29,808 bases of DNA. Origin: a bacterium (lineage in GTDB: Bacteria; SM23-81; DAOVCL01). Below are positions 1,390 to 14,967 of the stretch, in pieces. How positions within the stretch are numbered: the first letter of the stretch is position 1; each line of letters begins with the position of its first letter. Below the pieces are notes generated by a model. It saw nothing but the letters and a program-made list of their open reading frames with translations, was not told the DNA's origin and did not search any database. The stretch covers positions 1-29,808 of the forward strand of contig JAOZPP010000037.1 in assembly GCA_029932675.1 (NCBI GenBank). Direction: 5' to 3'. Both the position numbers and the translations under genes were made by a program.

Positions 1390-2321
1390 GGGTTCCTCAC
1401 CAGGTGGAAATGGACTTGACCGCTTTCCTCCGCTGCCGTTTTGATCTCGACTGTATGAGGGTGGGATATAGGTATGCCCCTTGGATGGAGGTAGATGGCG
1501 AGTATATCCAGGGGGTTCTCTGTGGGGAGAGGGTAATCAGGCTTAGGCTAAAGACCAGACAAGGCAAGCTTCTGCTCGGTTTGGAGTCAAATTCTATCCT
1601 CTCTCCCCAGGAGATTGCTTGGTTAAGGGAGAGGGTGATATACTGCCTGGGCTTGAAAGATGACCTTTCCCCAATTTACGAATTAGCTAAGGGGGATGAA
1701 AACCTTAAGCAGGCCTTGTTGGCCCTCCCTGGGTATAGGTTGAAGGCTACCCCTACCCTTTATGAGGCAATCATTTCGGCTATGCTTAGCCAAAACTGTA
1801 GTGCCCAGGTTTTCTTCTCCATGCGGGAGAAGCTAATCAGAGCTTTAGGAAGAAAGGAGGAGATTGGGGGCGATATGGTCTATGCCTTCCCCCTCCCAAA
1901 GGACATTCATACTGCGGAAGAAAATGTCCTTAGGGAAATGGGTCTCTATTATCGCACAAAGTTCATCCGTGAGGTGGCCCAACATCTGAGTCCTAGATTT
2001 TTGCAGGAACTGAGGCGAACCTCCCCTGCCGAGGGAATCGCCGCCCTCAGATCCTTAAAAGGGATTGGGGAATATACCGCAAGGGTTGTCCAGATCTACG
2101 GGCTAAGAAGGTTTAACCTTGGCTTCGTAGACGGCTATGTGCAAAAACTTTTAGGCATGCTCTATTTGGGCACCCTCCGACCCAAACCTAAGGAGATCTT
2201 TGCCCTGGCTCAGAGTAAGTGGGGGGAATGGCAGGCCTATGCCCTGGATCTACTCATTGCTTATTGGCAAGGAAGGAGCCTCCCCCGGGATTCAGGGGAT
2301 TTACCCTATGGCTCATCGTAG
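1386..2321 (+). CDS. HhH-GPD DNA glycosylase (AlkA/OGG-like)
   Basis: A 311-residue base-excision-repair DNA glycosylase of the HhH-GPD superfamily. The helix-hairpin-helix is LKGIGEYTARVV (residues 224-235), followed by VDGYV with the likely catalytic Asp249. Residue 230 is Tyr where bifunctional OGG/Nth enzymes have the Schiff-base lysine, so I infer a monofunctional enzyme like AlkA (3-methyladenine-type lesions). The segment AIISAMLSQNCS (about 128-139) corresponds to the conserved 'A-I-L-x-QQ-x-S' region, with QN in place of QQ. The N-terminal ~110 residues look like the AlkA/OGG beta domain. The start overlaps the upstream MFS stop (ATGA). Its 3' end overlaps the convergent MFS gene by 16 bp (2306-2321). 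Substrate specificity is an inference from family. Confidence 0.85.
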   Translation: MRVPHQVEMDLTAFLRCRFDLDCMRVGYRYAPWMEVDGEYIQGVLCGERVIRLRLKTRQGKLLLGLESNSILSPQEIAWLRERVIYCLGLKDDLSPIYELAKGDENLKQALLALPGYRLKATPTLYEAIISAMLSQNCSAQVFFSMREKLIRALGRKEEIGGDMVYAFPLPKDIHTAEENVLREMGLYYRTKFIREVAQHLSPRFLQELRRTSPAEGIAALRSLKGIGEYTARVVQIYGLRRFNLGFVDGYVQKLLGMLYLGTLRPKPKEIFALAQSKWGEWQAYALDLLIAYWQGRSLPRDSGDLPYGSS

Positions 2322-3556
2322 CTTGTTGCCTTTTTAGGTTTCGGAGTTCCCCTCCTCTCTTGCAGGCCCAGGGAGAGCAGGAAGGAGAGTAGGGAAAGCC
2401 CACCCACTAAGCCGAAGAGGAATGTGTAGGAAGAGAGGTTTATTATCCAGCCGCCCAGTGCCGAGAAGAAGACGGTGGGAGCAATAATGGTATTCATAAA
2501 TCCCACATAGGTTGCTCTCTCCTCCGGGGGGGCTATCTCCAAAAGGTAGTTGGTGTAGCCAATATTCAGGCCGCTGCCAGTTGCTCCTAAAAAGAAGAAG
2601 GCCAACTGAAAGATAATGGTTGGGGAGAGGGGGAAAAGGATAACCAAAAGGGGCGAGAGCAGAGCCATGAAGGAGGTGAGGCTGAGGACCAACCTGTTGC
2701 TCCTCCTGTTGCTTAATCTGCCCCAAACCACATTGGAGGAGATCATCCCCACCATCTCACAGGAGAGATAGACCCCAATCACTTTGTCTTCAACTCCTAA
2801 AACCTTCTGAGCATAGAGCACATAGAAAGGCATCCCCAGAAGATAAGAGCCCAACAGCATCCTTACCAAGAAGAACCGGCGAAAGTTGGTATCCCCTTTG
2901 AATATCTGGGGACCCTTGAGGAGCGACTCCCGAAAACTTCTTCCCTCCCCGGGCAGCGATGGTTCCTTGGCAAAACAGAAAAAGAGGAGAGCTAAGGTTA
3001 TGCAGATAAGGGCTAAGGTGAAGATGAGGCCAAAGTTGGTGGGATATGAGAACCGACCCATTATCATCGTCACCACCACTCCCCCTCCCACTGCCAAGAG
3101 GCCCCCAAAGAATATTCTCATTCCGAAAAAAGATCCCCTTTTCTCCAAAGGAATTGTCTTTCCTACGATCTCCATAAAGGGTACTCCCGCAATTCCCCCA
3201 GCTACAGCATAAAGGGTGAAGAGGACGAAGAAAAGCCAGAGCAGAAGTTCCCTCTGTTCACCAAAGAGGAAGATGGATACAGTCACCCCACCGAAGAAGA
3301 GGCTTCGGAGGCCAGCCATCCAGATATAGAGGGGGAGCTTTCTTCCCTTGTGTCCTACCAGTCCGGCCACTAACATCTGGGGAAGCAACCAGCCTATGGA
3401 GGCCAAGTTGGAGGAAAGGCCGATAAGAACCTTGGAGGAGGTCAATTGGGAGAGGAAAGCAGGGAGGATAGAGGAGCCCCTGATAAAGGCTGAAGCCAAG
3501 GTAAAGAGGGCGCCGTTTAAAACCCCCAAGATGAAGTTTCTCCGATACCAGGCCAT
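2306..3556 (-). CDS. MFS family permease
   Basis: A 416-residue inner-membrane MFS transporter with about 12 hydrophobic segments. The loop 2-3 motif is AGLVGHKGRKLPLYIW (63-78), with His in place of the usual Asp. The subgroup differs from the permease at 115: it resembles uncharacterised 'MFS transporter' proteins beginning with a short polar N-terminus and a helix starting near residue 7. The substrate is unknown. The ATG at 3556 has only a pyrimidine-rich stretch just upstream. A GAAGGGA lies about 22 bases upstream, too far for normal spacing, so initiation may be weak or leader-dependent. It is convergent with the DNA glycosylase gene (16-bp overlap) and divergent from the promoter at 3678. 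Confidence 0.88.
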   Translation of the reverse strand: MAWYRRNFILGVLNGALFTLASAFIRGSSILPAFLSQLTSSKVLIGLSSNLASIGWLLPQMLVAGLVGHKGRKLPLYIWMAGLRSLFFGGVTVSIFLFGEQRELLLWLFFVLFTLYAVAGGIAGVPFMEIVGKTIPLEKRGSFFGMRIFFGGLLAVGGGVVVTMIMGRFSYPTNFGLIFTLALICITLALLFFCFAKEPSLPGEGRSFRESLLKGPQIFKGDTNFRRFFLVRMLLGSYLLGMPFYVLYAQKVLGVEDKVIGVYLSCEMVGMISSNVVWGRLSNRRSNRLVLSLTSFMALLSPLLVILFPLSPTIIFQLAFFFLGATGSGLNIGYTNYLLEIAPPEERATYVGFMNTIIAPTVFFSALGGWIINLSSYTFLFGLVGGLSLLSFLLSLGLQERRGTPKPKKATSYDEP

Positions 3557-3677: not shown

Positions 3678-3706
3678 TTGACAAAGAGGAACGGAACTAT
3701 TATTTT
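3678..3706 (+). promoter_or_regulatory. Sigma-70-type promoter for leader RNA / ABC exporter
   Basis: TTGACA (3678-3683), 17-bp spacer, TATTTT (3701-3706). The same -35, spacer length and -10 occur inside the 159-bp repeat at 7059 and 7946. Transcription would begin near 3713, about 205 bases before the ABC transporter gene. Confidence 0.6.
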
Positions 3707-3712
3707 AGATGA

Positions 3713-3880
3713 AAATCAAAGGTGTGAGGTCTGATGGCTAACTTTCTGTGGATAACAATTTCGATTATGAACCGAATTAAGTTCGTTAAGGGGAGGAGTG
3801 TATCCATTGCTGAAGGTTAGCCATTGACTGGAGAGAAGACCAACTTGGCCGTGGGTGCCTCTGAGCCCACGGCTTTTTTG
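3713..3880 (+). ncRNA. Candidate structured leader or small RNA with intrinsic terminator
   Basis: Between a good promoter and the ABC exporter gene lies a ~168-nt stretch of nested complementary segments. They are: GGTCT 3728-3732 with AGACC 3837-3841; ATGGCTAAC 3734-3742 with GTTAGCCAT 3816-3824 (perfect 9 bp, extendable by a G-U); GTGGATA 3748-3754 with TATCCAT 3801-3807; and a small CGAA/TTCG hairpin at 3773-3785. An 11-nt bulge (3826-3836) and two internal loops separate the stems. A strong terminator follows at once. It could be a riboswitch/attenuator controlling the exporter or an independent small RNA. I do not recognise a known family and it lacks the consensus cores of TPP, SAM, cobalamin, glycine or c-di-GMP-I elements. 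Confidence 0.5.
3848..3879 (+). terminator. Intrinsic terminator ahead of the ABC exporter gene
   Basis: A perfect 8-bp stem, GCCGTGGG (3848-3855) and CCCACGGC (3866-3873), with a 10-base loop and TTTTTT (3874-3879). It lies between the promoter at 3678 and the ABC gene start at 3917, so it must be read through, or regulated, for the exporter to be expressed from that promoter. Confidence 0.85.
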
Positions 3881-3916
3881 TTATTAGGGGTTTTTAAGCT
3901 CAGGGAGAAAAAGGGA

Positions 3917-4723
3917 ATGGATTTAGCCATTAAGTGCAAGGGGATAACCAAGTTTTTCTACGAGACAAATTCGGGGGGGAAGTCAAAAGGAGGGTTTCTG
4001 CCTTGGAGTGGCAGAAATAGTAAACTTACTGCTGTGGATTCCCTCAATCTGGAAGTGAATCGCGGGGAGATATTTGGGATTGTTGGCCCCAATGGATCAG
4101 GAAAGTCCACCTTGGTCAGACTTATCTCCACCCTGCTTTTGCCGGATAGGGGGCAGATAGAGGTGTTTGGGTTGGATGTGGTCAAGCAGAAATCCCAGGT
4201 CAGGAAGCTAATAAACAGGGTCTCAGTTGATGCGGCCTTCTTTAAGAAGCTCTCTTGTTGGGAGAACCTGAGTTATGCGGCCCGGCTCTATGGGGTCCCA
4301 ATTAAGGAGGCCAAAAGGAGGGCCACAGAGATCTTACAGAGGTTCGGCTTCCAGGAGGGAAAGATAACCCAACCTATGGAGAACCTCTCCCGGGGGATGC
4401 AACAGATGGTAGCTATTGCCCGCGCCTTCTTCACTTCTCCTGTACTCCTCCTTTTGGATGAACCCACCACCGGTCTGGATCCAAAATCTAAGAGGGAGGT
4501 GCAGGAGTTCATCCTAAGGGTTAGAGAGAGCCATGACTCTACTGTTTTGCTCACTACCCATGATATGGATGAGGCGGAGAAGATTTGTGATCGGGTAGCC
4601 ATCATCGATCGCGGGAGGATTGTGGCGTTGGATACCCCCAAGAACCTGAAGTTTATGGTAAAGGGGGAAAGTTTAGAAGATGTCTTTATGGAGCTAACCG
4701 GAAAGAGTTGGGAGGAGGACTGA
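3917..4723 (+). CDS. ABC-2 exporter ATP-binding protein
   Basis: A 268-residue ABC ATPase. Walker A is GPNGSGKST (57-65), the signature is LSRGM (157-161), Walker B is VLLLLDEP (176-183, catalytic Glu182), and the H-loop His is 215. The position of the Q-loop glutamine reads Val (VSVDAAFF, 102-109), which fits a subfamily with degenerate Q-loops. An inserted Gly/Lys-rich stretch (about 18-37) precedes the first beta strand. An open frame extends upstream to 3824, but that part would translate the terminator hairpin. ATG 3917 follows AAGGG and starts at the normal family N-terminus, so I chose it. Its TGA overlaps the permease ATG (TGATG). With the permease it forms a DrrAB/NatAB-like exporter of unknown substrate, probably under the upstream leader. 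Confidence 0.9.
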   Translation: MDLAIKCKGITKFFYETNSGGKSKGGFLPWSGRNSKLTAVDSLNLEVNRGEIFGIVGPNGSGKSTLVRLISTLLLPDRGQIEVFGLDVVKQKSQVRKLINRVSVDAAFFKKLSCWENLSYAARLYGVPIKEAKRRATEILQRFGFQEGKITQPMENLSRGMQQMVAIARAFFTSPVLLLLDEPTTGLDPKSKREVQEFILRVRESHDSTVLLTTHDMDEAEKICDRVAIIDRGRIVALDTPKNLKFMVKGESLEDVFMELTGKSWEED

Positions 4724-5520
4724 TGAGTCCATTGGCTTCAGAATTGAAGGCCTGTTACGGCTTTGTAGAGAGAAACTTCAACTTGGTGAGGCGATATCTG
4801 GGTTGGGAGATAGTCTTTTTAGTCTACAACATCGTCAATGCCTTAACCATTGGTTTCATAGGGGTAACCCAGGGAAAGGAGAAGGTCCTCTATCTGGTGG
4901 TGGGGGCAATGTTATGGGGTTTCCTCTCCATTCTCTTCCATGAGGTGAGCGAATCGGTATCCTGGGAAAGGTGGGAGGGGACGATCGAATACACCTTTAT
5001 GGCCCCTGTGCACCGGTTTACCCATTTAGGAGGGATGTGTATCTACGCCATTATTTATGGGATAATCAGAACCGTGGTGTTGTTACTTGCTGTCGCGCTT
5101 TTCTTCAACCTCAGCTTACAAAACGCTAACTTTCCTGCCGCCTTAATCATCCTTGTGGTCTCCAGCCTCTCCTTCATTGGGTTGGGGTTAATGGCCGCTA
5201 TCCTCCCCTTAATGTCTCCAGAGAAGGGCTCCCAGGCGACCCATATCTTCCAGGCAGTCCTCCTCCTGATCTCTGGGGTTTATTACGAAATAAGCGTTCT
5301 TCCCAAGTGGATACGGCCACTTTCGGCCATCTCCCCGGCTACTTACACCCTGCGGGCGATGAGGGCTGCCCTCCTGGAGGGAAAGCCCCTCGGGCAGATG
5401 AAGGGTACGCTCCTTGTCCTTCTGGTTGTTGGTCTTATGCTCATCCCCTTAGGGCTCCTTGTCTTTCACTTAGCGGAGATCTATGCTAAAAGGAGGGGAA
5501 AACTAAAGAGGAGTGGATAA
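4723..5520 (+). CDS. ABC-2 type transporter permease
   Basis: A 265-residue inner-membrane permease with about six hydrophobic segments. A typical ABC-2 C-terminal region is present: 'ISGVYYEISVLPKW', then 'ISPATYTLRAMR' before the last helix. The C-terminus is basic (KRRGKLKRSG). The start ATG at 4723 sits six bases after GGAGGAG (4711-4717) and overlaps the ATPase stop by one base. An alternative GTG at 4708 would bury the Shine-Dalgarno in the coding sequence and is unlikely. It is the membrane partner of the preceding ATPase. The substrate is unknown; lipid, polysaccharide or drug export is typical of the class. No terminator is visible after it. The repeat-rich accessory region starts immediately downstream. 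Confidence 0.88.
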   Translation: MSPLASELKACYGFVERNFNLVRRYLGWEIVFLVYNIVNALTIGFIGVTQGKEKVLYLVVGAMLWGFLSILFHEVSESVSWERWEGTIEYTFMAPVHRFTHLGGMCIYAIIYGIIRTVVLLLAVALFFNLSLQNANFPAALIILVVSSLSFIGLGLMAAILPLMSPEKGSQATHIFQAVLLLISGVYYEISVLPKWIRPLSAISPATYTLRAMRAALLEGKPLGQMKGTLLVLLVVGLMLIPLGLLVFHLAEIYAKRRGKLKRSG

Positions 5521-5607
5521 ACCTCGGGGGACAATCTTCGCAGATGCCCTGAGGGAGGCAAGATGTTAACAGGGAACTGCCCTTAGGGGAAAGGGCTTCA
5601 CCGGGTT

Positions 5608-5721
5608 TTTAGTGCGGGTCAAGGACCTTAAACCCCATCCAAGCCGTCAGAGCCCCTGTTCTCCCGGCCCGGTATATCTTAACCTCCTGCAGGTTTCAAG
5701 CCTGCAGGAGGTTGTGGTTTA
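5608..5721. repeat. Direct repeat, copy 1 of 2 (partner 6908-7022)
   Basis: A 114-bp unit matching 6908-7022 with about four differences including one indel. It begins TTTAGTGCGG and ends GGTTGTGGTTTA. Its right part is a perfect 13-bp inverted repeat, AACCTCCTGCAGG (5681-5693), loop TTTCAAG, CCTGCAGGAGGTT (5701-5713). No coding potential. Confidence 0.85.
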
Positions 5722-5794
5722 TTGAACAATTGGGAAGAGCTTGGGAGATTGCAGTGGGGGAAAATAGGAAGTGTCACTTTTTTCTATGTTCGTC

Positions 5795-5849
5795 CGTCAT
5801 TGCGAGACTTGCCTCAAGCGATAGCGAAATGGCAAGCTGGAGCAATCTC
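5795..5849. repeat. CGTCATTGCGAG / AGCAATCTC dispersed repeat
   Basis: It begins CGTCATTGCGAG and ends AGCAATCTC, with GCGATAGCGAAATGGCAAG-type sequence between. This matches a very widespread short intergenic repeat (CGTCATTGCGAGN...GAAGCAATCTC) known from many Bacteroidetes, Chloroflexi and Deltaproteobacteria. This copy is diverged. Confidence 0.65.
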
Positions 5850-6050
5850 TAACCTCTGCCGTCAGGGCTCTGCCCTGCCGGTAGAAAGTTCTACCGCATT
5901 TTAATGTAGGGTCCTCTATGGGGCTAAGACCCTACAACACCAGCTAAAGCTGGGTAGAAAACCCGTAGGGGCAGGACTTCAGTTTGTCCGAGGGAAAATC
6001 CGAAAAATGGCTTGACGTTTCTGATAAATATGGTTAATTTTGATGAAGAA

Positions 6051-6257
6051 ATGCCCAAAATGAAATGTTCTTTATGTGGAGGAGAACTCAAAGAGAAAAT
6101 CATTAGCTATGAAGTCCACTTCAAAGAAAAGCCTTATAATTTTGTGGACGTGCAAGCTTTAGTTTGTGAGAGCTATGGTGATATTTCGTTCTCCTCAGCA
6201 ATGGTCAAAGAGATGGGTCGGACCATCGAAGGGAAAGGGAAACCATATAACTACTAA
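6051..6257 (+). CDS. YgiT-type zinc-finger antitoxin-like protein, one zinc ligand lost
   Basis: A 68-residue protein resembling the YgiT/MqsA-type zinc-finger family that usually serves as the antitoxin partner of a small toxin (often DUF4258 or MqsR). The first ligand pair is intact (CSLCGG; Cys codons at 6066 and 6075). The second, which should be CxxCG, reads CESYG: the Tyr codon TAT is at 6174-6176, one transition from TGT. Zinc binding by the normal four-cysteine site is therefore doubtful. The usual toxin gene is absent on both sides. Start alternatives are ATG 6030, 6051 or 6060, none with a strong ribosome site; I chose 6051 to fit the family N-terminus. Probably a relic or an orphan regulator. 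Confidence 0.6.
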   Translation: MPKMKCSLCGGELKEKIISYEVHFKEKPYNFVDVQALVCESYGDISFSSAMVKEMGRTIEGKGKPYNY

Positions 6258-6550
6258 ACCCGGATTGTTCCTAAACTGCTGACGAGTTTGTAATTCAGAG
6301 GTTTTCTTATCACCCGTAGGGACAGACCTTCAGGTCTGTCCGCCCCTTTCTCCGCTAAGGCGGAGTCCCTACAAGGAGGCAGCCACGGCGTTGAGAATGA
6401 ATAGCAGTGATTTATGAATAATTCAGGTAAAAAGGCGTCCGTTTCCCCCCTTACGGAATCTACGCCTTAAGCAAGCAATCTGAATTTGCGTAAATCCAAG
6501 GCTGGTTGCAATTCAGATCCCCTAAAAAATAGCGCCATTGGAGTGATACT
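6258..6550. other. Gene-free region with three hairpin systems
   Basis: A composite palindrome occupies 6316-6372. Two hairpins lie closer to the DUF2442 gene: AAGGCGT 6432-6438 with ACGCCTT 6462-6468, enclosing CCGT/ACGG; and ATCTGAATTTGC 6478-6489 with GCAATTCAGAT 6508-6518. The latter two could form a folded 5' leader. Confidence 0.45.
6316..6372. repeat. Composite family B palindrome (two hairpins in an outer stem)
   Basis: An outer GTAGGGA/TCCCTAC pair (6316-6322, 6366-6372) encloses GGACAGACC-TTCA-GGTCTGTCC (6320-6341) and CTCCGC-TAAG-GCGGAG (6350-6365). The TTCA-looped GGACAG.../...CTGTCC core recurs at 9070-9095 and 9448-9470, and degenerately at 5964-5989. Confidence 0.65.
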
Positions 6551-6796
6551 ATGATACCAAGAGTGATTGAAGCAAAGTATGTTAAGGGATACATCCTTCA
6601 TCTTCGTTTTTCTGATGGTTCAGAAGGCGAAGTGAACCTTGAAGGGGAATTAGAGGGAGAGATTTTCGAGCCTTTAAGGGATATTTCCTACTTCAAGAAT
6701 TTCAAAGTGGATCATGAGCTGCACACTATTATTTGGCCTAACGGTGCTGATTTTGCCCCTGAGTTCCTGTATGAAAAGTTAAAGGTGTTGGCATAA
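6551..6796 (+). CDS. DUF2442 family protein
   Basis: An 81-residue acidic protein with the DUF2442 pattern: an N-terminal 'PRVIEAKYVKGYILHLRFSDG' strand pair, 'FEPLRDISYFKNFKVD', and the diagnostic 'IIWPNGADFAPEFLYEKL' ending. DUF2442 proteins are frequently paired with a DUF4160 protein and regarded as toxin-antitoxin-like or regulatory partners. No DUF4160 gene is visible here, so this copy is an orphan. The ATG at 6551 is preceded by GGAGTGATACT (GGAG, 7-base spacing), giving a good ribosome site. Two hairpins lie in the 120 bases upstream. The molecular function of the family is unproven. Confidence 0.8.
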   Translation: MIPRVIEAKYVKGYILHLRFSDGSEGEVNLEGELEGEIFEPLRDISYFKNFKVDHELHTIIWPNGADFAPEFLYEKLKVLA

Positions 6797-6907
6797 TAAT
6801 AGAAAAAGGGGTGGGTAGAGGGAGATAGGGAACCACAAATTCATACAGCATTACACGGATGTGCAGCTTGTAAGGCTCTTCCCTCATGGGCAAGGGTTCT
6901 ACCGCAC

Positions 6908-7022
6908 TTTAGTGCGGATCAAGGACCTTAAACCCCATTCCAAGCCGTCAGAACCCCTGTTCTCCCGGCCCGGTATATCTTAACCTCCCGCAGGTTTCAA
7001 GCCTGCAGGAGGTTGTGGTTTA
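6908..7022. repeat. Direct repeat, copy 2 of 2 (partner 5608-5721)
   Basis: A 115-bp unit with about four differences from copy 1. It is preceded by an intact family C hairpin, CCGCAC-TTTA-GTGCGG (6902-6917), which overlaps its left end. Its inverted repeat is AACCTCCCGCAGG (6982-6994) with CCTGCAGGAGGTT (7002-7014), with one mismatch. Confidence 0.85.
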
Positions 7023-7024
7023 GC

Positions 7025-7183
7025 CAGGGCTCCTGTCCCTGAAGGGAGGGGAAACTCCTTGACAGGATAAGCCTCAGTAGTTATTTTTACGGCAGACCAA
7101 GGTGAAGTGTGAGGGACATCTTCTGAGGCGATAATTGAGATCAGAAGGTGAGGTCAAAAAATAGGGAGTGTCCCTATTTTTCA
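7025..7183 (+). repeat. 159-bp promoter-bearing repeat, copy 1 (partner 7912-8070)
   Basis: Matches 7912-8070 over 159 bp with two mismatches near the left end; offset 887 bp. It contains a TTGACA-17-TATTTT promoter (7059-7087), an inverted pair TTCTGA 7121-7126 / TCAGAA 7141-7146, AAGGTGAGG (7145-7153), and the 25-bp family A palindrome at its right edge (arms AAAAATAGGGA and TCCCTATTTTT, loop GTG, 7157-7181). Confidence 0.9.
7059..7087 (+). promoter_or_regulatory. Promoter inside the 159-bp repeat, copy 1
   Basis: TTGACA (7059-7064), 17-bp spacer, TATTTT (7082-7087). Transcripts would begin near 7094 and lead into the antitoxin gene at 7201, passing the TTCTGA/TCAGAA pair and the AT-rich palindrome. 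Confidence 0.55.
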
Positions 7184-7200
7184 AAGCGAGGTAGTTAAAA

Positions 7201-7413
7201 ATGGTCAAAAGTGTCAGTATAGAAGGTTTAGATGATGAGCAGGCTCATTTCATCAGGGAACTTGTAGAATTTCTCAGGACGAAAAAGCAGAGAAAACAAG
7301 CCTTTACAAGAACAGGAGCCAAGGGGAGAAAAAGGGGTGAGGTAGCCTTTGCCACTTATCCCTTAGGAGTTAAAGGAGAACTGACAAGGAAGAAAATTTA
7401 TGAAGGCATCTGA
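7201..7413 (+). CDS. Antitoxin-like protein upstream of a PIN-toxin relic
   Basis: A 70-residue basic protein with an N-terminal 'SVSIEGLDDEQAHFIRELVEFL' helix, a Lys/Arg-rich middle, and a C-terminal 'YPLGVKGELTRKKIYEGI'. This arrangement is typical of short antitoxins (VapB-like in role) encoded directly before PIN-domain toxins: a dimerising N-terminus and a C-terminal segment that inserts in the toxin. I do not recognise an exact Pfam family. The ATG follows GAGG (7188-7191) by nine bases. Its stop overlaps the start of the PIN gene (ATG 7400), the usual coupled arrangement. It appears intact although the toxin is broken, so it may persist as a free antitoxin/repressor. Likely transcribed from the promoter at 7059. 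Confidence 0.6.
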   Translation: MVKSVSIEGLDDEQAHFIRELVEFLRTKKQRKQAFTRTGAKGRKRGEVAFATYPLGVKGELTRKKIYEGI

Positions 7414-7727
7414 TCTTGCATTGCTTGATACCAATGTTATTGTTTATGCCGTGGATTCTTCCTCCCCTTACCAATCCCATCTCCCCTCAGGAAGCCATGG
7501 AGGAAGTTAAAAAGTATCTTGAGTGCAAAAGCATTGTCAAGATTTATCCTCGAAAGGACATTTTGTAAGCGATGATAGCTCTTTTTAGGGACCATCCGGT
7601 AGAAAGGGCGGAGATTTTTGATCTCCAACTTATCGCCACTATGCTCTCGAATGGGGTGAGCCAAATCTACACTTATGACCAGAAACTATTCACAAAGTTT
7701 GAGGAAATCAGGGTGTTAAATCCATGA
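7400..7727 (+). pseudogene. Broken PIN-domain toxin (VapC-like)
   Basis: Starts in frame with the PIN N-terminus MKASDLALLDTNVIVYAVD (acidic residue in LLDTN), 14 bases before the antitoxin stop, but runs into TAA at 7508-7510. Homology resumes in another frame from about 7488 (QEAMEEVKKYLECKS...). That frame contains an internal TAA at 7566-7568 and then ends with a good PIN C-terminus (IFDLQLIATMLSNGV, IYTYDQKLF, ending at TGA 7725-7727). The total is ~328 bp, shorter than the ~400 bp of an intact gene, so an internal deletion is likely besides the frameshift and the stop. PIN proteins are Mg-dependent ribonucleases; this one cannot be functional as written. Confidence 0.8.
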
Positions 7728-7771
7728 AGGGGAAAGGGCGGTGGTGGAGAGAGTGTTTCAAAATCTTCCAT

Positions 7772-7910
7772 TTAATCTAATAAATCGGCTTTGGTAATCT
7801 CCTCACTAAGATCTTTAAGCCCTAACTACCCATCCTTCCTGTGCCTCCTGTAATCTCTTATAAATTACAAAAGGGCCTGTAAAAGGTTTCCCTAAATGAT
7901 ACCATTTCCA
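7772..7910 (-). pseudogene. Possible decayed small ORF, unrecognised
   Basis: Read on the minus strand, this stretch gives WYHLGKPFTGPFVIYKRL then QEAQEGWVVRA. After a one-base shift it continues as LKDLSEEITKADLLD and a stop (TAA at 7772-7774). The two pieces look protein-like but are interrupted, and the 5' side is cut by copy 2 of the 159-bp repeat (starts 7912). It may be a gene fragment truncated by repeat insertion. I do not recognise a family, and chance is possible. Confidence 0.25.
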
Positions 7911-7911
7911 T

Positions 7912-8070
7912 CAGGGCTCCTGCTCCTGAAGGGAGGGGAAACTCCTTGACAGGATAAGCCTCAGTAGTTATTTTTACGGCAGACCAAGGTGAAGTGTGAG
8001 GGACATCTTCTGAGGCGATAATTGAGATCAGAAGGTGAGGTCAAAAAATAGGGAGTGTCCCTATTTTTCA
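7912..8070 (+). repeat. 159-bp promoter-bearing repeat, copy 2 (partner 7025-7183)
   Basis: Second copy, with promoter at 7946-7974 and the family A palindrome at 8044-8068. The next gene is open from a GTG that forms the palindrome loop (8055-8057), so the right end of the repeat is fused in frame to that gene. Confidence 0.9.
7946..7974 (+). promoter_or_regulatory. Promoter inside the 159-bp repeat, copy 2
   Basis: Identical to the promoter at 7059: TTGACA, 17 bp, TATTTT. It would drive the DUF7718-like/DUF5647-like gene pair at 8055-8641. Confidence 0.55.
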
Positions 8071-8369
8071 ATGAATTTCTGCTCTGTGACTCTGACCGAA
8101 AAAGGCATGTACATAAGACTGATCGGGGCAAGGTTATTTCCTTTACTGTTCAGTTTGAAACTTTGGTGAATGACAAATGGTTGCCTGTTATTCGCTACGA
8201 TACAGCTCACGGCTGCGCTCATAAAGACATTCTTCATCCCAATGGTCACAAAGAGAAGATCGACCTTGGATCACTGACTTTGAAAGAGGCATTGGTTTTA
8301 GCAGACAGAGACATCAACGAAAATTGGCCCCGATACAAGCAACGCTTTATCGAGGAGTACGGCAAATGA
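8055..8369 (+). CDS. DUF7718-like small protein
   Basis: A 104-residue protein with a conserved-looking core, 'VISFTVQFETLVNDKWLPVIRYDTAHGCAHKD', followed by 'DINENWPRYKQRF'. I recognise this RYDTAHG...AHRD pattern as a family of small uncharacterised proteins (I believe DUF7718) often encoded next to a DUF5647 protein. The first five codons (MSLFF) and the GTG start lie inside the family A palindrome of the 159-bp repeat, so the native start may have been replaced by the repeat. AAGGTGAGG is about 14 bases upstream, longer than ideal. An ATG at 8071 is out of frame. Its stop overlaps the next ATG (ATGA, 8366-8369), so the pair is coupled. A toxin-antitoxin-like role is inference from context only. 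Confidence 0.7.
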   Translation: MSLFFNEFLLCDSDRKRHVHKTDRGKVISFTVQFETLVNDKWLPVIRYDTAHGCAHKDILHPNGHKEKIDLGSLTLKEALVLADRDINENWPRYKQRFIEEYGK

Positions 8370-8641
8370 GTCAAAGGGACTTCTTCTCCAAAAATTTGAC
8401 TTTATCTACTGAGTTTGACCTATCTCTCTTAGATCACCCTGAAGTCGCAGAGCAAATCCCCAAGGATGCACTCATTGTGTTTCTCCCTGAGGATGATCAA
8501 GAACTTTGCGCCTACAACTTGGAAAATGCTAAGAAGATGAAGAGATCCGGTCAAAGGGTTATCTATGTGAAAATCAAAGGGTTAGAACCTCCCCGTTCCA
8601 GGCTCATAAATCCACAAGTTGAACTTGCCCCAGCTACATAA
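8366..8641 (+). CDS. DUF5647-like small protein
   Basis: A 91-residue protein. It resembles DUF5647: 'LSTEFDLSLLDHPEVAEQIP', 'ALIVFLPEDDQELCAYNLENA', then 'RVIYVKIKGLEPPRSRLINP'. I chose ATG 8366, inside the ATGA overlap with the upstream stop. The frame is open back to 8324 but that would extend far into the first gene. The function of this family is unknown. It has a short two-layer alpha/beta appearance with no enzyme motif. Genes like this are commonly found as the second member of a pair with the RYDTAHG-type protein, as here, suggesting a two-component (possibly toxin-antitoxin) module driven by the repeat-borne promoter at 7946. Confidence 0.7.
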   Translation: MSQRDFFSKNLTLSTEFDLSLLDHPEVAEQIPKDALIVFLPEDDQELCAYNLENAKKMKRSGQRVIYVKIKGLEPPRSRLINPQVELAPAT

Positions 8642-8744
8642 TAGGATCTTCTTAGCCTCACGAAAATCTTTCGACTTGGAGCCTCGAATTTTTTCTCCTC
8701 TTAGAAATGAAACTGCAGGTTCACGGAGATGGACGCAGATTCTA

Positions 8745-8760
8745 CCGCACTTTAGTGCGG
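8745..8760. repeat. Family C hairpin
   Basis: CCGCAC-TTTA-GTGCGG, a perfect 6-bp stem identical to that at 6902-6917, preceded in both by TTCTA. Confidence 0.7.
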
Positions 8761-8930
8761 ATTTGGGGCCTTTAGATCCAAGAATGGGCTACCAGGAACT
8801 GGTCGGGGAAGCCCCCAAAAAAGTTCCCTCCGTTTTTGCGGGGGTAGAAAAGCCGTAGTCCGAAAAGTTAAACCCTTTTCCTTCCGATGAAGGAGATATC
8901 TTACCTTTCGTTCGAGAGGAGGTTGGGTGA

Positions 8931-9053
8931 GGGAGAGTCGGGAAGCGAAAACAAGGGCTCTACAGCGGTTAATTCCAAGCTGGAGTCCAATAGGAGGAAA
9001 CAGCCGATTTGCTTAGGGTGTACGTATGAAGGCAGGTCGGTTTTTTGTTTTTT
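8931..9053 (+). ncRNA. RNA-like element, copy 1 (partner at 9267-9429)
   Basis: Shares ordered blocks with the 9301-9429 element: GGGAGAGT (8931), CAAGCTGGAGTC (8976-8987), GCCG, GGCAGG.CGG, and a T-run TTTTTTGTTTTTT then GG. Its terminator stem is GCCGA (9003-9007) with TCGGT (9037-9041), plus TGC/GCA inside. Where copy 2 has G-C, this copy has A-T in the stem, a compensatory pair. No clear -35 is present; TATCTT at 8897-8902 matches the copy 2 -10. Possibly a decayed copy. No known RNA family recognised. Confidence 0.4.
9003..9053 (+). terminator. Terminator-like hairpin of RNA copy 1
   Basis: Stem GCCGA/TCGGT with inner TGC/GCA and a long loop, followed by six T, G, six T (9041-9053). It is weaker than its partner at 9390-9429. 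Confidence 0.5.
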
Positions 9054-9069
9054 GGGGAGGTGGAGCCGT

Positions 9070-9095
9070 AGGGACAGGGCTTCAGCCCTGTCCCT
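9070..9095. repeat. Family B palindrome
   Basis: AGGGACAGGGC, loop TTCA, GCCCTGTCCCT: a perfect 11-bp stem. Related copies at 6320-6341 and 9448-9470. Confidence 0.8.
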
Positions 9096-9106
9096 AGTTT
9101 CCCTGA

Positions 9107-9132
9107 GCCGTCAGAACCCCGATTCTGACGGC
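9107..9132. repeat. Family E palindrome
   Basis: GCCGTCAGAA, loop CCCCGA, TTCTGACGGC: a perfect 10-bp stem. The left arm GCCGTCAGA(A/G)CCCC also occurs in both copies of the 114/115-bp repeat (5643 and 6944) without its right arm. Confidence 0.7.
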
Positions 9133-9143
9133 GAAAAGGAAAA

Positions 9144-9169
9144 GGTGGCAGAAGAGGGCTTCTGCCACC
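9144..9169. repeat. Family D palindrome
   Basis: GGTGGCAGAAG, loop AGGG, CTTCTGCCACC: a perfect 11-bp stem followed by TCAAG. Other copies at 17730-17752 (same TCAAG flank) and 25795-25818. Confidence 0.8.
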
Positions 9170-9194
9170 TCAAGGGAGGAAATTGTGATGGACG

Positions 9195-9219
9195 AAAAAT
9201 AGGAAGTGTCCCTATTTTT
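9195..9219. repeat. Family A palindrome
   Basis: AAAAATAGGAA, GTG, TCCCTATTTTT; one mismatch compared with the perfect copies at 7157-7181 and 8044-8068. Confidence 0.8.
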
Positions 9220-9232
9220 CATAAAAAAATCC

Positions 9233-9260
9233 TTGACTGAGGGAGGGGAATTCCTATCTT
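9233..9260 (+). promoter_or_regulatory. Promoter for RNA copy 2
   Basis: TTGACT (9233-9238), 16-bp spacer, TATCTT (9255-9260). The predicted transcript runs from about 9267 to the terminator at 9429, ~163 nt. Confidence 0.5.
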
Positions 9261-9266
9261 TAAGTA

Positions 9267-9429
9267 AGAGACAGAGTGGGGTTCACCCCATTTGACCTGC
9301 GGGAGAGTGTGGCCGAGGGGAGTTAGGGCACAGAGCCCGGGGTCTGAAGCAAATAACAATACAAGCTGGAGTCTAATGAGCTGGGGATAGCCGGGCTGCA
9401 AGTTTAAGGCAGGCCGGCTTTTGTTTTTT
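9267..9429 (+). ncRNA. Candidate structured RNA, copy 2
   Basis: Bounded by a promoter and an intrinsic terminator. Local hairpins: TGGGG-TTCA-CCCCA (9277-9290) and GGGC-ACAGA-GCCC (9326-9338). The CAAGCTGGAGTC block (9362-9373) is shared with copy 1. It contains no open frame and is upstream of the giant secreted protein gene (start 9583), so it could be a small RNA or a leader regulating that gene. I do not recognise a riboswitch consensus. Confidence 0.45.
9390..9429 (+). terminator. Intrinsic terminator of RNA copy 2
   Basis: Stem GCCGG (9390-9394) with CCGGC (9414-9418), a G.G mismatch, then CTGC (9396-9399) with GCAG (9409-9412), and a 9-base loop. It is followed by TTTTGTTTTTT (9419-9429). 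Confidence 0.75.
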
Positions 9430-9447
9430 GGATTTTTAGAGGCATCA

Positions 9448-9470
9448 GGGACAGGGCTTCAGCCCTGTCC
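9448..9470. repeat. Family B palindrome
   Basis: GGGACAGGGC, TTCA, GCCCTGTCC. It is the same core as 9070-9095 and occupies the same position relative to the upstream terminator. Confidence 0.75.
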
Positions 9471-9493
9471 GAAGGGAGCGGGCTACACAGGAG

Positions 9494-9516
9494 AAAATAG
9501 GAAGTGTCCCTATTTT
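9494..9516. repeat. Family A palindrome followed by T-rich iterations
   Basis: AAAATAGGAAGTGTCCCTATTTT, then three further CCTATTTTT-like units up to 9546. This suggests slippage from the right arm of the palindrome. Confidence 0.7.
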
Positions 9517-9582
9517 TCCCTATTTTTCCTATTTTTTATTTTTCCCTACACAAAATACAAACTCAAAAATGGAGGTGAGGGA

Positions 9583-12500
9583 ATGAAGACACACATGTTT
9601 TTCCCTTTTCTGACCCTAGTTTTGGTGGGGGTTGTGGCTACGGCGGTTTTGGACTATGGGCAGCCGATGGATTGGGGACAGAAGGGTTCTGGCCCTCAGA
9701 GGAGAGGTACCAAGTTAAACGACTTGCTTACTGCTTCCTTTCAGAGCAAATGGGACGGCGTTCATTATGTGGGCAAGTTACTATTTGGGCCGGTTAAGGC
9801 TGTGGAAGTTCAAGGTGATTACGCCTATCTTAACTCAGGCGGGGGGATACTTGTCCTAGACATCTCCGATTCTACATCACCAACCAGGATTGGCGGAATC
9901 TCCGCTCCAGGGAGGGTTAATGGCCTCTTCCTTAAGGATTCTTGCCTCTATGTGGCTACCGGATCAGCCGATGGGGACTGTGCTAGCTTGGCATTAGTGA
10001 ATGTGAGTGATCCGGCTTACCCCTATCTAGAAGGCCAGTACAACTTCTATACTTCATACGGCGCAGAGGACGTGTATGTTACGGGTCCTTATGCCTATGT
10101 CGCATTTGGAAGTGGTTTAAGGATCATAAATGTGGCAAATCCAGCTAACCTTTATGAGGTAGGTTACTACGCTAATCCAGTTGCGGCAGTGCATGTCCTC
10201 GACTCATTAGTCTATGCTGCGTGTGGAAGTAGTTTAAGGATCATAAATGTGGCTGATCCAGCCAGCCCTTATGAAGTAGGTTACTGTGATACCCCAGGCG
10301 GGGCAGAGGGACTATATGTCTTGGATTCATTAGCTTATGTCGCCAGTTACTATGCTGGTTTAAGGGTGATCAATGTGGCTGATCCAACCAACCCTTATGA
10401 GCTGGGCTACTACGATACCCCAGGCCAAGCGTGTGGCGTATATGTCTCCGGCTCCTATGCCTATGTGGCTGATGGGACTGCCGGTTTGCGGGTGATCAAT
10501 GTGAGCAATCCGGCTAATCCCTATGAGGAAGGTTATTACGATACTCCAGGCAGTGGAGGGGATGTATATGTCTCAGGTTCATATGCCTATGTTGGGGGGT
10601 CTGGTTTACGGGTCATCAGTGTGGCCGATCCGGCCAACCCTTATGAGGAAGGTTACTACCCGACCCCAGGCGAAGCGCGGGGGGTATATGTCACAGATTC
10701 TCATGCATATGTTGCTGACGGTTCCCGTGGTTTGATGGTCATTAGTGTGGTCGATCCAACGAACCCTCGTGAGGAAGGTTACTGCATCACTCCTGGCAGC
10801 GCACATGATGTATATGCAGATGGCTTTTATGCCTATCTCGCAGACGGAGAAAGTGGGCTAAGGATCATCAATGTGGCCGATCCGGCTAACCCTTATGAGG
10901 TGGGCCACTACGATACTCCAGGTTATGCACGAAGTGTATATGTCCTGGGTTCTTATGCGTATGTCGCCGATGACACTGCTGGTTTGCGGGTGATCAATGT
11001 AGCGGATCCGGCCAACCCTTATGAGGTGGGCCACTGTGAAACCCCAGGCTCTGCACAGGATGTATATGTCTTGGATTCTTTAGCCTATGTCGCAGATGAT
11101 GCCCGTGGCCTAAGAATCATTAATGTAGCTTATCCAGCTAATCCCAATGAAGTAGGCTACTACGACACTCCAGCCCATGCAGTGGGGGTATGTGTCTTAG
11201 GTTCTTATGCCTACATCGCTGATATGCCCTTCGGGGAGGAGGAGGATGGTTTAAGGGTAATCGATGTGGCTAATCCAACCGACCCCCATGAAGTAGGTTA
11301 CTACGATACGGGTTATGCACATGATGTATATGTCTCAGGTTCATATGCCTATGTGGCAGAAAACAATTACGGTTTAGGGGTGATCAATGTGGTTGATCCA
11401 ACCAATCCCTACGAGGCGGGTTCCTTCGATAATCCGTGGGGCTGGGCGTGGGGACTCTCAGTCGCAAATAGTGTTTATCCCTCGGGTTGCTATACCTATT
11501 TCACAGATGCAATGACTGGTTTGATCATCGTGCAGTTTTCTGGTCAGCTTGGCACAATCGCTGGCACGGTGAAGGACTCGTATACTCAAAACCCGATAGA
11601 AGGTGTGCTTGTGGAGGCGATGCAAGAAGAGAATGTACTCGGAAGCGACAACACAGAATCTGATGGGAGCTACAGCATTCCCAATTTGCCCCCAGGCACT
11701 TACAATGTTCGGGCATCAAAAGATGGTTATGAGACCAAGACCGAAAATGGGAAGGAAGTAGTTGCCGATCAGACCACAACCGTTGACTTCCAGCTCAATC
11801 CCAGCCCGTCTGATACCCTGTTCTTTGATGATTTTGCTGATGGGAATGATGATGGCTGGCAGAAATACGGTGGTTGCACCTGGACGGTGGAAAATGAAGA
11901 ATACACCAGCAGTGTGAGCGGATCTGAGGTCTGGTGTCTCAGTGTGGCTGGCAACTCTGACTGGACGGATTATATCTTTGAGGCCGATGTCTATGGAGAT
12001 GCGGGTGTGGATAAGGTAGTGGCATTTCGGGTCGTTGATGAGAACAACTTCTATGCGGTGAATGTGAGAAGCGACTGGATGGGGGCAGATGAGGTTACCC
12101 TCTCCAGGATAGTGAATGGAGTCTCTACCGAGATCACCACTGCTGAATATCCCAGTCAGCTCAATACCTGGTATCACATTCAAGTCAAGGTTATCGGTGA
12201 TAATATAAAGGTCCGGGTAGATGACAACCTGGTAATAGATTACACCGATACAGACACCCCCTTGGACAACGGCCAGATTGCCGTCACAGCCTACTCCGGT
12301 GCCTACGGAAGCGCCACCGTGAGGTTTGACAATGTGCTGGTGGCCTGGCCACCGGGAATCGAAGGGATTCAAGTGTTATCCCCCAATGGTGGGGAAGAGT
12401 GGGTTGTAGGGTCCGAGCACGATATCACCTGGACTTCGATGAACTTCACCGGCAATGTCAAAATAGAATACTCCACCAACGGGGGCACGGATTGGATGCC

Positions 12501-14967
12501 AATCATAAGCAGCACGGAAAATGACGGCATTCACCTTTGGACAATTCCGGACGACCCTTCAACTGACTGTTTGGTGAAGGTGTCCGATGCTGCCGACGGT
12601 AACCCTTGGGATGTGAGCGATGCCCCATTTACCATCAGTCCTCATCCAACGGGCACTATTGCCGGTACCGTAACAGAAATTCGTCTACCCCCAGCACCTC
12701 CCATACCAGATGTCTTAATCGAAGTTTGGCAAGGCTTTACCATTGTTAATTCTACAACAACTTCGGACGATGGGACCTATACCCTTGAAGTAAATACAGG
12801 GACTTACTTAGTCAAGGCATCAAAATTGGGTTATGTAACGAAGACCCAGGACAACGTCGTTGTTACAGAGGACCAGACCACGACGATAGATTTCCAGTTG
12901 CCAAGAACCAACATCACTTTGACTTCACCTGAGAATGGGGATGTGTGGATTGGGGGTGACACTTACCTCATCACCTGGACCACTGAAGGTACTGGTATAG
13001 ACCACATAAGATTGGACTACACAACCGATGGCTCTAATTGGGAATCGATTGTTGAAAGTACTCCTGATAATGGATCGTTCTCTTGGGAAACACCTCGCAT
13101 AGGCTGTCGAACTGTTGTAGTTCGAGCTTATGCTGAGGCTGTTGATGACCACATTTGGGATTGGGACGAACACATGTTTACCCTGGGATTTGGCGATTTC
13201 CTGCTTAATCGGGACGCGTATGGCTTTGATAATTACGGGGATCCAGACCGTGATGATGATTGGGACCAATTTGTGGATGCCTTTAACCTTCAAGGTCTAA
13301 TCGATCACTATCCTGGAGCAACCATTTCTAAGATTCTGCTTTCAGCTTTTCTGGAAGGACGTGATGGCAATAAGGCAGGAAATTGCTTCGGGATGTCAGC
13401 CACAAGCATACTCTTTTTTACCCGTTTCCTCGATGTTACAGATCAGAACCTCGTCGGGCAAGAGGCTGATTCCCCCTACGAACTTCAACTCTATCAGCAG
13501 GGACATATCATCCCAGAATTAGATCATCTGATTGAGAAGTATCATTGGTATGCGATGAGTGCTGAGGTCCAGAAGTATCTCTGGAAGTCGGATGACAATG
13601 AGGACCCTGTTACGGTATTCAATCGACTCTTAGACAATTTTCAAAATGGAAATGAACGCCCGAGCACCATTCAAATTGCTAAAGCAAGAGTAGAAAATGG
13701 CGAGATAAAAGGGCCAGCTCACGCGATGGTGGCAATAGGTGCCTATTTAGAAACCAGCACTATTGGTAAAATAGTTGCGTACGATCCGGACGCACCTGGG
13801 GTGCAAGGCCGTGAGGTTACCGTTGATTTGGCAGGAAATACCTGGGGCTATCCACCCAGGGGTTGGAGTGGAGATTCCGATGTAAGGTCTTTATTTGCAG
13901 TTCCGGATACTATACTCGATGGTCCACACTCATTGCCAGAAGAAGACCCGGATCTTACTGTAGTTTTGGCGGTCCTGGGCGCGGAGAGTGTGGTGCGACT
14001 ATTCTTTACCGATGACCAAGGTAGGTATCTTGGCTGGCATGAGGGAAATTTCCATGCCAACATCCCAGGCGCAGGGCCAATTTTGTTCTGGGAGAGTGAC
14101 ACTGGACCGAGCCCGGAACAATACTTTTTGCCATCTGACATCTACTTTACAACTACGGTTATTGGAGTAGACACGGGCACCTACGGTATTGATTTCTTTG
14201 CAGGCGGCAATCTTTTTCAAATCAGAGACGCCACCGTTGGCACAACGACGATCGATCATGTTTCCTATGTTGATAGCACAGGCACAGCAAGTTACACCAC
14301 CTCTGACTCAATGAAGTGGTATTCTTCCTCTCTAATCAAGGTACTACCCGACACATCTGGTGAGCGAATCTTCACCGTGCTCAACACTTCGATCTCCGCT
14401 GGTGATAGTGTAAACTTCGTAGTCAGCCCTGACCTCAACTCCTTCTCGTATGTCAACTGGGGTGGGCCCAAAACCTATGACCTTATGATTGAACAGAGGG
14501 GCATCCATGGAGACTCAACATTCTATTCTGGTTTTTCTCTTGGTGAAAGCACCACGGATAGATTCACTCCACAGGATTGGGATTCTTTAAGTGGTAGTCA
14601 AGTCGTTCTTGAGGTTGATGTGGGAAATGATGGCAACGTGGATAGCACAATTGTGCTGGAGCCTGGCGTTTCGGTGCCTTCCAGACACTTGTCTGGATTA
14701 CCGATGGTCTTCTCCCTCTCCCAGAACTATCCCAATCCCTTTAACCCCATCACCACGATCAAGTATGCTCTGCCCAGGGATTGCTGGGTGAGGTTGGAGG
14801 TTTACAACATCTTGGGGCAGAAGGTGGCGAGTTTGGTGGATGGGGAGCAGAGGGCTGGATACAAAACCGTTAGATGGGATGCGGGGGCGCTTTCCAGTGG
14901 CATTTATTTCTATCAGTTGCAAGCCGGAGAATTCGTGCAGACAAGGAAGATGGTTCTTTTGAGATAG
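9583..14967 (+). CDS. Giant secreted LVIVD-propeller protein with putative Cys-hydrolase domain and sorting tail
   Basis: A 1794-residue protein. ATG 9583 follows GGAGGTGAGGG (9571-9581); the frame is open upstream but only through repeats. Residues 1-25 are a signal peptide. Residues ~70-655 hold about 14 LVIVD-type repeats of 39-45 residues (GLRVINVADPANPYEVGYYDTP-like), probably two seven-bladed propellers. Then come carboxypeptidase-regulatory-like domains (~657-742 and 1024-1107), a LamG-like domain (743-921), and two KNH/Ser-Thr-rich-type domains starting 'LSPNGGEEW' (929) and 'LTSPENGDVW' (1111). Residues ~1205-1420 form a globular domain with GNCFGMS (Cys1268), GPAHAMVAIG (His1380) and VAYDPD (Asp1401), the order of a papain/transglutaminase-like triad. 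The C-terminus (~1709-1794, NYPNPFNP at 1715) is a FlgD-like/Por sorting domain, implying export to the cell surface. Catalysis is inferred only. Confidence 0.88.
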   Translation: MKTHMFFPFLTLVLVGVVATAVLDYGQPMDWGQKGSGPQRRGTKLNDLLTASFQSKWDGVHYVGKLLFGPVKAVEVQGDYAYLNSGGGILVLDISDSTSPTRIGGISAPGRVNGLFLKDSCLYVATGSADGDCASLALVNVSDPAYPYLEGQYNFYTSYGAEDVYVTGPYAYVAFGSGLRIINVANPANLYEVGYYANPVAAVHVLDSLVYAACGSSLRIINVADPASPYEVGYCDTPGGAEGLYVLDSLAYVASYYAGLRVINVADPTNPYELGYYDTPGQACGVYVSGSYAYVADGTAGLRVINVSNPANPYEEGYYDTPGSGGDVYVSGSYAYVGGSGLRVISVADPANPYEEGYYPTPGEARGVYVTDSHAYVADGSRGLMVISVVDPTNPREEGYCITPGSAHDVYADGFYAYLADGESGLRIINVADPANPYEVGHYDTPGYARSVYVLGSYAYVADDTAGLRVINVADPANPYEVGHCETPGSAQDVYVLDSLAYVADDARGLRIINVAYPANPNEVGYYDTPAHAVGVCVLGSYAYIADMPFGEEEDGLRVIDVANPTDPHEVGYYDTGYAHDVYVSGSYAYVAENNYGLGVINVVDPTNPYEAGSFDNPWGWAWGLSVANSVYPSGCYTYFTDAMTGLIIVQFSGQLGTIAGTVKDSYTQNPIEGVLVEAMQEENVLGSDNTESDGSYSIPNLPPGTYNVRASKDGYETKTENGKEVVADQTTTVDFQLNPSPSDTLFFDDFADGNDDGWQKYGGCTWTVENEEYTSSVSGSEVWCLSVAGNSDWTDYIFEADVYGDAGVDKVVAFRVVDENNFYAVNVRSDWMGADEVTLSRIVNGVSTEITTAEYPSQLNTWYHIQVKVIGDNIKVRVDDNLVIDYTDTDTPLDNGQIAVTAYSGAYGSATVRFDNVLVAWPPGIEGIQVLSPNGGEEWVVGSEHDITWTSMNFTGNVKIEYSTNGGTDWMPIISSTENDGIHLWTIPDDPSTDCLVKVSDAADGNPWDVSDAPFTISPHPTGTIAGTVTEIRLPPAPPIPDVLIEVWQGFTIVNSTTTSDDGTYTLEVNTGTYLVKASKLGYVTKTQDNVVVTEDQTTTIDFQLPRTNITLTSPENGDVWIGGDTYLITWTTEGTGIDHIRLDYTTDGSNWESIVESTPDNGSFSWETPRIGCRTVVVRAYAEAVDDHIWDWDEHMFTLGFGDFLLNRDAYGFDNYGDPDRDDDWDQFVDAFNLQGLIDHYPGATISKILLSAFLEGRDGNKAGNCFGMSATSILFFTRFLDVTDQNLVGQEADSPYELQLYQQGHIIPELDHLIEKYHWYAMSAEVQKYLWKSDDNEDPVTVFNRLLDNFQNGNERPSTIQIAKARVENGEIKGPAHAMVAIGAYLETSTIGKIVAYDPDAPGVQGREVTVDLAGNTWGYPPRGWSGDSDVRSLFAVPDTILDGPHSLPEEDPDLTVVLAVLGAESVVRLFFTDDQGRYLGWHEGNFHANIPGAGPILFWESDTGPSPEQYFLPSDIYFTTTVIGVDTGTYGIDFFAGGNLFQIRDATVGTTTIDHVSYVDSTGTASYTTSDSMKWYSSSLIKVLPDTSGERIFTVLNTSISAGDSVNFVVSPDLNSFSYVNWGGPKTYDLMIEQRGIHGDSTFYSGFSLGESTTDRFTPQDWDSLSGSQVVLEVDVGNDGNVDSTIVLEPGVSVPSRHLSGLPMVFSLSQNYPNPFNPITTIKYALPRDCWVRLEVYNILGQKVASLVDGEQRAGYKTVRWDAGALSSGIYFYQLQAGEFVQTRKMVLLR
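9790..11540 (+). repeat. Tandem ~126-bp coding repeats (LVIVD units)
   Basis: About 14 in-frame units, each encoding Y-V-x-x-S-x-AYVAD...GLRVINVADP-NPYEVGYYDTPG-like sequence. Nucleotide similarity is high among units 4-11, indicating recent expansion or homogenisation. Confidence 0.8.

Follow-up and report, generated by a model that had tools for sequence, protein, structure and literature searches.

The DNA analyzed here (the window) is a stretch of 29,808 nucleotides from an uncultured Zixibacteria-like bacterium in which an intergenic region separates a gene for an MFS protein from an oppositely transcribed pair of genes for an ABC exporter. The features of this locus are given below; strands 1 to 4 are the segments of the leader RNA which enter competing helices.

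2306-3556, minus strand: divergent MFS gene, on the other flank of the leader intergenic region
3678-3706, plus strand: sigma-70-type promoter TTGACA-17-TATTTT, read from the sequence (TTGACA 3678-3683, TATTTT 3701-3706)
3726-3729, plus strand: Shine-Dalgarno-like GAGG, read from the sequence, 4 nt upstream of the leader ATG
3728-3754, plus strand: strand 1, Shine-Dalgarno/start codon and first 7 codons (MFE fold; ribosome-mask model)
3734-3820, plus strand: predicted leader ORF of 28 codons, MANFLWITISIMNRIKFVKGRSVSIAEG (ATG 3734, TAG 3818-3820)
3793-3829, plus strand: strand 2, 3' end of the leader ORF with the stop codon (fold; complementarity; ribosome-mask model)
3842-3861, plus strand: strand 3, 5' arm of the terminator and start of its loop, being the 3' half of the antiterminator (complementarity; ribosome-mask model)
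3847-3879, plus strand: intrinsic terminator, stem 3847-3874 followed by a T run, its 3' arm being strand 4 (scan, fold, conservation)
3917-4723, plus strand: first gene of the putatively regulated operon, DrrA-like ABC exporter ATPase (match below the TIGR01188 cut-off)
4723-5520, plus strand: second gene, ABC-2 type permease (PF01061), overlapping the stop codon of the ATPase gene

In NCBIfam the names drrA and drrB were reached only below their cut-offs, and we have therefore left the substrate of the exporter without assignment. A PDB search grouped the ATPase generically with ABCA and other ABC ATPases and gave no match for the permease.

The sequence-only reading had described a promoter, a folded RNA of about 168 nt with nested stems and a terminator in front of the exporter, and all of these elements are present. 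Judged by consensus score alone the promoter is at chance level (2 found, 1.6 in shuffles), and so is the terminator in a simple scan (3 found, 3.2 expected). Both are kept in two relatives which carry the leader, the promoter as TTGACA-17-TATTTT in genome G001 and as TTGCCA/TATATT in genome G003, the terminator almost identical in the former and retained in the latter. From the position of the promoter, transcription would start at about 3713. The 168-nt leader RNA has a minimum free energy of -60.9 kcal/mol as compared to -43.35 ± 3.77 kcal/mol for shuffled sequences (z = -4.66, 0 of 200 shuffles). As had been described, a 9-bp stem AUGGCUAAC/GUUAGCCAU (3734-3742/3816-3824) closes a region of 73 nt, and sequence and fold also confirm a 7-bp inner stem formed by GUGGAUA and UAUCCAU. 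The element is present in one copy in the genome.

What had been overlooked is that a leader ORF sits beneath these stems. Its stop codon is 26 nt away from the terminator stem, and besides GAGG the sequence GGTG at 3721-3724 is an alternative Shine-Dalgarno candidate. The arrangement of the Shine-Dalgarno sequence is the same in G001 (GAGAGGTCTAATG).

A nucleotide search in 98 genomes returned true homologues of the leader only in G001, which belongs to the same genus as the window, and in G003, all other matches being short and due to chance. Exporter and leader co-occur, since both are found in these two Zixibacteria genomes and both are missing from a third relative, G002. In G001 the leader ORF has 30 codons with one in-frame 6-nt insertion relative to the window and the same stop position. 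In G003 the end of the leader ORF is retained together with promoter and terminator; a G run shortened by one base places this conserved end in a different frame from that of the nearest ATG, which may be due to an assembly error or to decay. When the window is compared with both relatives, conservation is lowest in strand 1 and in the apical region, and it is the 3' end of the ORF and the arm of the terminator that are kept. The three stems of the sequence-only reading do not share in this conservation: the stem between strands 1 and 2 is weaker in G001 and has mismatches, strand 1 of the window was not found in the G003 leader, and the minimum free energy folds of both leaders do not reproduce the nested stems. 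What persists is the geometry of ORF and terminator and the complementarity between ORF end and terminator arm. The ORFs of the window and G001 differ at 7, 5, and 6 first, second, and third codon positions and 12 of the 14 changed codons are nonsynonymous. We therefore dropped peptide conservation as evidence for coding. No purifying selection on the leader peptide is visible between these two sequences, in keeping with a leader in which the position of the ribosome is sensed and the peptide itself has no function.

Scanning genome contigs for the permease yielded 80 loci from many phyla. At 38 loci, forming about 13 leader groups with the window and its relatives included, an ORF of 18-48 codons in front of the orthologous ATPase gene ends 11-31 nt before an intrinsic terminator. 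We also applied an automatic rule (Shine-Dalgarno sequence, ATG, 17-48 codons, stop codon 8-32 nt before the strongest terminator). It was satisfied by 22 of the 50 terminator-bearing loci with 1.5 expected from shuffles of the 180 nt upstream, whereby the nominal probability is overstated as the loci are partly related. The leader groups were assigned to Zixibacteria, WOR-3/Stahlbacteria, Coatesbacteria and Bacillota, besides some further bacteria. Poribacteria and other loci, judged by eye, have no comparable leader and the association of leader and exporter is therefore not universal.

These leaders show complementarity between the 3' part of the ORF and the 5' arm of the terminator. Combined over 13 leader groups this complementarity has a Stouffer z of -7.4 against dinucleotide shuffles and of -6.0 against codon shuffles. 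The antiterminator of the window has an energy of -20.8 kcal/mol, for which the window taken alone reaches only p = 0.010 with dinucleotide and 0.025 with codon shuffles. Here strand 2 has two partners, as it can pair either with strand 1 (via 3800-3829) or with the 5' arm of the terminator (via 3793-3817). For the WOR-3 group we used an alignment of 14 distinct leaders (A2), on which the following pairing percentages are based. The antiterminator between the last ORF codons and the terminator arm has standard pairs in 97.6% of the cells compared to 36-52% for slid versions. Three of its pairs are changed on both sides (two from A-U to G-C and one from G-C to A-U), which was matched by 2 of 500 shuffles. 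The terminator is 99.2% paired and a hairpin in the end of the ORF, the rival of the antiterminator, is 97.1% paired versus at most 47% when slid. As all three helices are supported, the mutually exclusive pairings 1-2, 2-3, and 3-4 therefore exist in WOR-3, with the stop codon adjoining strand 2. A WOR-3 covariance model of leader end and terminator (R1) matches the window via the terminator only (12.3 bits, E = 0.21), and such a match does not demonstrate that the attenuators of Zixibacteria and WOR-3 share an ancestor.

The influence of a ribosome on these pairings was modeled by partition-function folding in which the ribosome footprint, from -14 to +15 of the P site, was held single-stranded. 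The model is simplified in that the footprint is fixed, the start site is assumed and kinetics are left out. With no ribosome the window leader is predicted to have 9.9 terminator pairs and 0.9 pairs between leader and strand 3. With the P site at codons 2-5 the terminator pairs drop to between 3.2 and 0.6, even at full length, and about 16.6 antiterminator pairs of strands 2 and 3 are predicted before strand 4 is made. With the P site at codons 10-22 the model predicts the OFF state. For a ribosome at the stop codon it predicts that strand 1 can pair with strand 3 as long as strand 4 has not been made, although the terminator wins at full length. Only 1 of 250 dinucleotide shuffles of the leader equalled the drop in terminator pairs of the window and none of 250 equalled the rise in antiterminator pairs. 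The loss of the terminator upon early arrest lies in the top tail (at most 2 of 60 shuffles) for 14 of 24 leaders from four phyla, groups of the Bacillota, Stahlbacteria, and Coatesbacteria among them. In the model the effect is not seen in the other 10 leaders, including that of G001, which gives no switch.

Taken together we conclude, with a probability of roughly 0.83, that the element is a leader-peptide (ribosome-mediated) transcription attenuator of the ABC-2 exporter operon. A promoter, a Shine-Dalgarno sequence, a 28-codon ORF, a terminator and three competing helices are established by sequence and computation. The short ORF with its Shine-Dalgarno sequence lies between promoter and terminator, the intrinsic terminator precedes the structural gene, and an antiterminator which overlaps the ORF excludes the terminator, in the window as well as, by covariation, in the WOR-3 counterparts. 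That the position of the ribosome chooses the fold is a result of the model and does not extend to G001. The sequence-only reading had offered a riboswitch or attenuator regulating the exporter, or else an independent small RNA. The attenuator part is supported, since in the relatives this exporter is likewise preceded by a promoter, a leader and a terminator, and the pairings of terminator and antiterminator are mutually exclusive; the riboswitch part is not supported.

According to the proposed mechanism, in the ribosome-free leader strand 1 with Shine-Dalgarno sequence and start codon would pair with strand 2, the 3' end of the ORF. This helix would act as an anti-antiterminator and leave strand 3 for strand 4, and transcription would end at about 3879 to give an RNA of about 165 nt. 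A ribosome running through to the stop codon would cover strand 2 and the terminator would again form. A ribosome arrested at the first few codons, however, would mask strand 1 and thereby free strand 2, which would seize strand 3 ahead of the synthesis of strand 4, so that RNA polymerase would continue into the exporter genes. We infer that the leader is translated, that the operon is induced and that a drug is the signal. The inducer is likely a translation inhibitor which arrests ribosomes early in the ORF, and the putative substrate would be this same inhibitor, expelled by the exporter.

The leader ribosome could alternatively wait at regulatory codons, as in an amino-acid (aminoacyl-tRNA) attenuator of the trp/his type. 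Both Zixibacteria leaders contain five Ile codons, with ITIS in common at codons 7-10, but a run of regulatory codons for one residue is not found, no residue is common to all groups, and the Ile codon usage of the window is not rare (ATA 14.1 per 1000). A pause with the A site at codon 7 does fall inside the antiterminating range of the model; the regulated gene, however, is an exporter with no biosynthetic neighbor. We regard such an attenuator as improbable.

Still less probable is a ligand-binding riboswitch, in which the stems would be an aptamer that binds a metabolite or drug directly and controls the terminator. The sequence-only reading saw a ligand-binding layout in the stems, and the strong fold (z = -4.66), the conserved terminator and leader end and the antitermination layout would agree with it, but the stems are made by the start and the end of the ORF, and the apical region between them is coding and not conserved. 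In riboswitches the aptamer is generally the part with the highest conservation. At this locus strand 1 and the apical region vary most among the Zixibacteria and the conserved parts are the 3' end of the ORF and the terminator arm, which argues against a riboswitch, as do the folds of G001 and G003, which differ from that of the window. In other phyla the leaders preceding this exporter have the geometry of ORF and terminator in common, not an aptamer. Rfam contains no family matching the leader at the gathering threshold and nothing above chance at the E-value threshold either. The ncr1575 sRNA (RF02452), which could be aligned to the leader at full length, reached 15.8 bits (E = 9.9), far under its gathering score of 60, and was rejected as a chance match.

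An independent small RNA, in this case a stable trans-acting RNA of about 165 nt next to an exporter with its own promoter, is equally improbable. The complete promoter-to-terminator unit and its very stable fold would agree with it, and a terminated transcript would arise in any case. The element, however, is a single copy and always found immediately 5' of the exporter, the ORF and the pairings competing with the terminator would be left without explanation, and an RNA of this length is the expected remnant of termination at an attenuator.

Leader-peptide attenuation as proposed here resembles the bmrB (yheJ) leader of bmrCD, the genes of an ABC multidrug exporter, in Bacillus subtilis, where losing leader translation lowers expression and abolishes the induction by lincomycin (PMC4191407). 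In both cases a short ORF, translated in bmrB and predicted in the window, precedes an ABC exporter, and both have an intrinsic terminator and three alternative stem–loops (PMC4191407); the predicted OFF state of the ribosome-free window leader also agrees. However, bmrB has 53 codons and contains the terminator inside the ORF, whereas the stop codon of the 28-codon ORF of the window lies 26 nt before the terminator. BmrCD is furthermore named differently from the DrrAB-like ABC-2 exporter. The leaders of vmlR (PMC9226507) and msrD (PMC10314930) and uORFC-6-1 before hflX (PMC8632094) likewise combine a short ORF, ribosome stalling as sensor and transcription attenuation upstream of a drug-protection gene; their regulated genes, however, code for ABC-F proteins and HflX and not for an ABC-2 exporter. 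In a genome scan Naville and Gautheret (2010) described "ABC-leaders", premature terminators and antiterminators before ABC transporter operons in lactobacilli, bacilli, and Gammaproteobacteria, and their section on these leaders leaves the sensing open (PMC2965389). The cases of their Figure 4 have no reported leader ORF, and that section does not mention the exporter group and the phyla dealt with here. In the open-access papers searched we found neither this exporter group nor these phyla nor a recurrence across phyla in this context. The mechanism itself is already known and its cross-phylum setting is apparently undescribed.

It is possible, though we would put the chance at somewhat below even, that one DrrAB-like ABC-2 exporter is held under leader-peptide attenuation in at least four phyla (Zixibacteria, WOR-3, Coatesbacteria, and Bacillota), the leaders having diverged to the point where nothing but geometry and complementarity is left, and with an apparently leaderless ORF, beginning at or beside the transcription start, in part of WOR-3. 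If true, this would be an ancient or repeatedly reinvented exporter of uncultured bacteria which senses translation stress and is directed against natural ribosome inhibitors. The experimental cases of leader-peptide attenuators of drug exporters come from few cultured bacteria such as Bacillus subtilis. The recurrence of this logic at an orthologous exporter of several uncultured phyla points to ribosome stalling as a general means of sensing translation inhibitors. The exporter family is therefore a worthwhile candidate for drug efflux. As the sequences are not conserved, covariance models fail where a simple search rule (a short ORF which stops 11-31 nt ahead of a terminator and whose end is complementary to the arm of that terminator) detects such switches.

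According to the WOR-3 model R1, 14 of 147 genomes have the element at the exporter, and three genomes contain four additional copies at other places. These copies (L151 572-645, L152 619-693, L153 594-668 in reverse, L154 512-589 in reverse) consist of a promoter, a short ORF and a terminator, with no exporter ORF directly downstream; in L153 more than 2 kb downstream are devoid of any ORF of 100 aa. At the WOR-3 loci L049, L050, L053, L073, L074, and L093 the leader ATG is only about 6-8 nt past the TATAAT box, and the leader ORF may therefore be leaderless. L048, L051, and L061 have two ORFs overlapping at TAATG or ATGATG instead of one 30-codon ORF. Leaders of the Coatesbacteria type were seen at L054 (2866-2943), L078 (2768-2893), L100 (2773-2892), and L144 (1109-1255). 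In the last three the ORF contains a GGUGGGUU-like copy of the 3' arm of the terminator itself, a putative direct mimic for the capture of the 5' arm.

Downstream of the exporter genes the window has 3.9 kb with small ORFs only (5520-9420). Positions 6012-6257 presumably resemble a YgiT-type zinc-finger antitoxin and 6551-6796 what we take to be a DUF2442 protein; the region is therefore possibly a toxin-antitoxin or remnant region. It is followed at 9421-14967 by a gene whose product of 1848 aa combines ten LVIVD repeats with carboxypeptidase-regulatory domains and a Por secretion C-terminal sorting domain, and tandem repeats of 126 bases are located inside this gene at 10232-11222.
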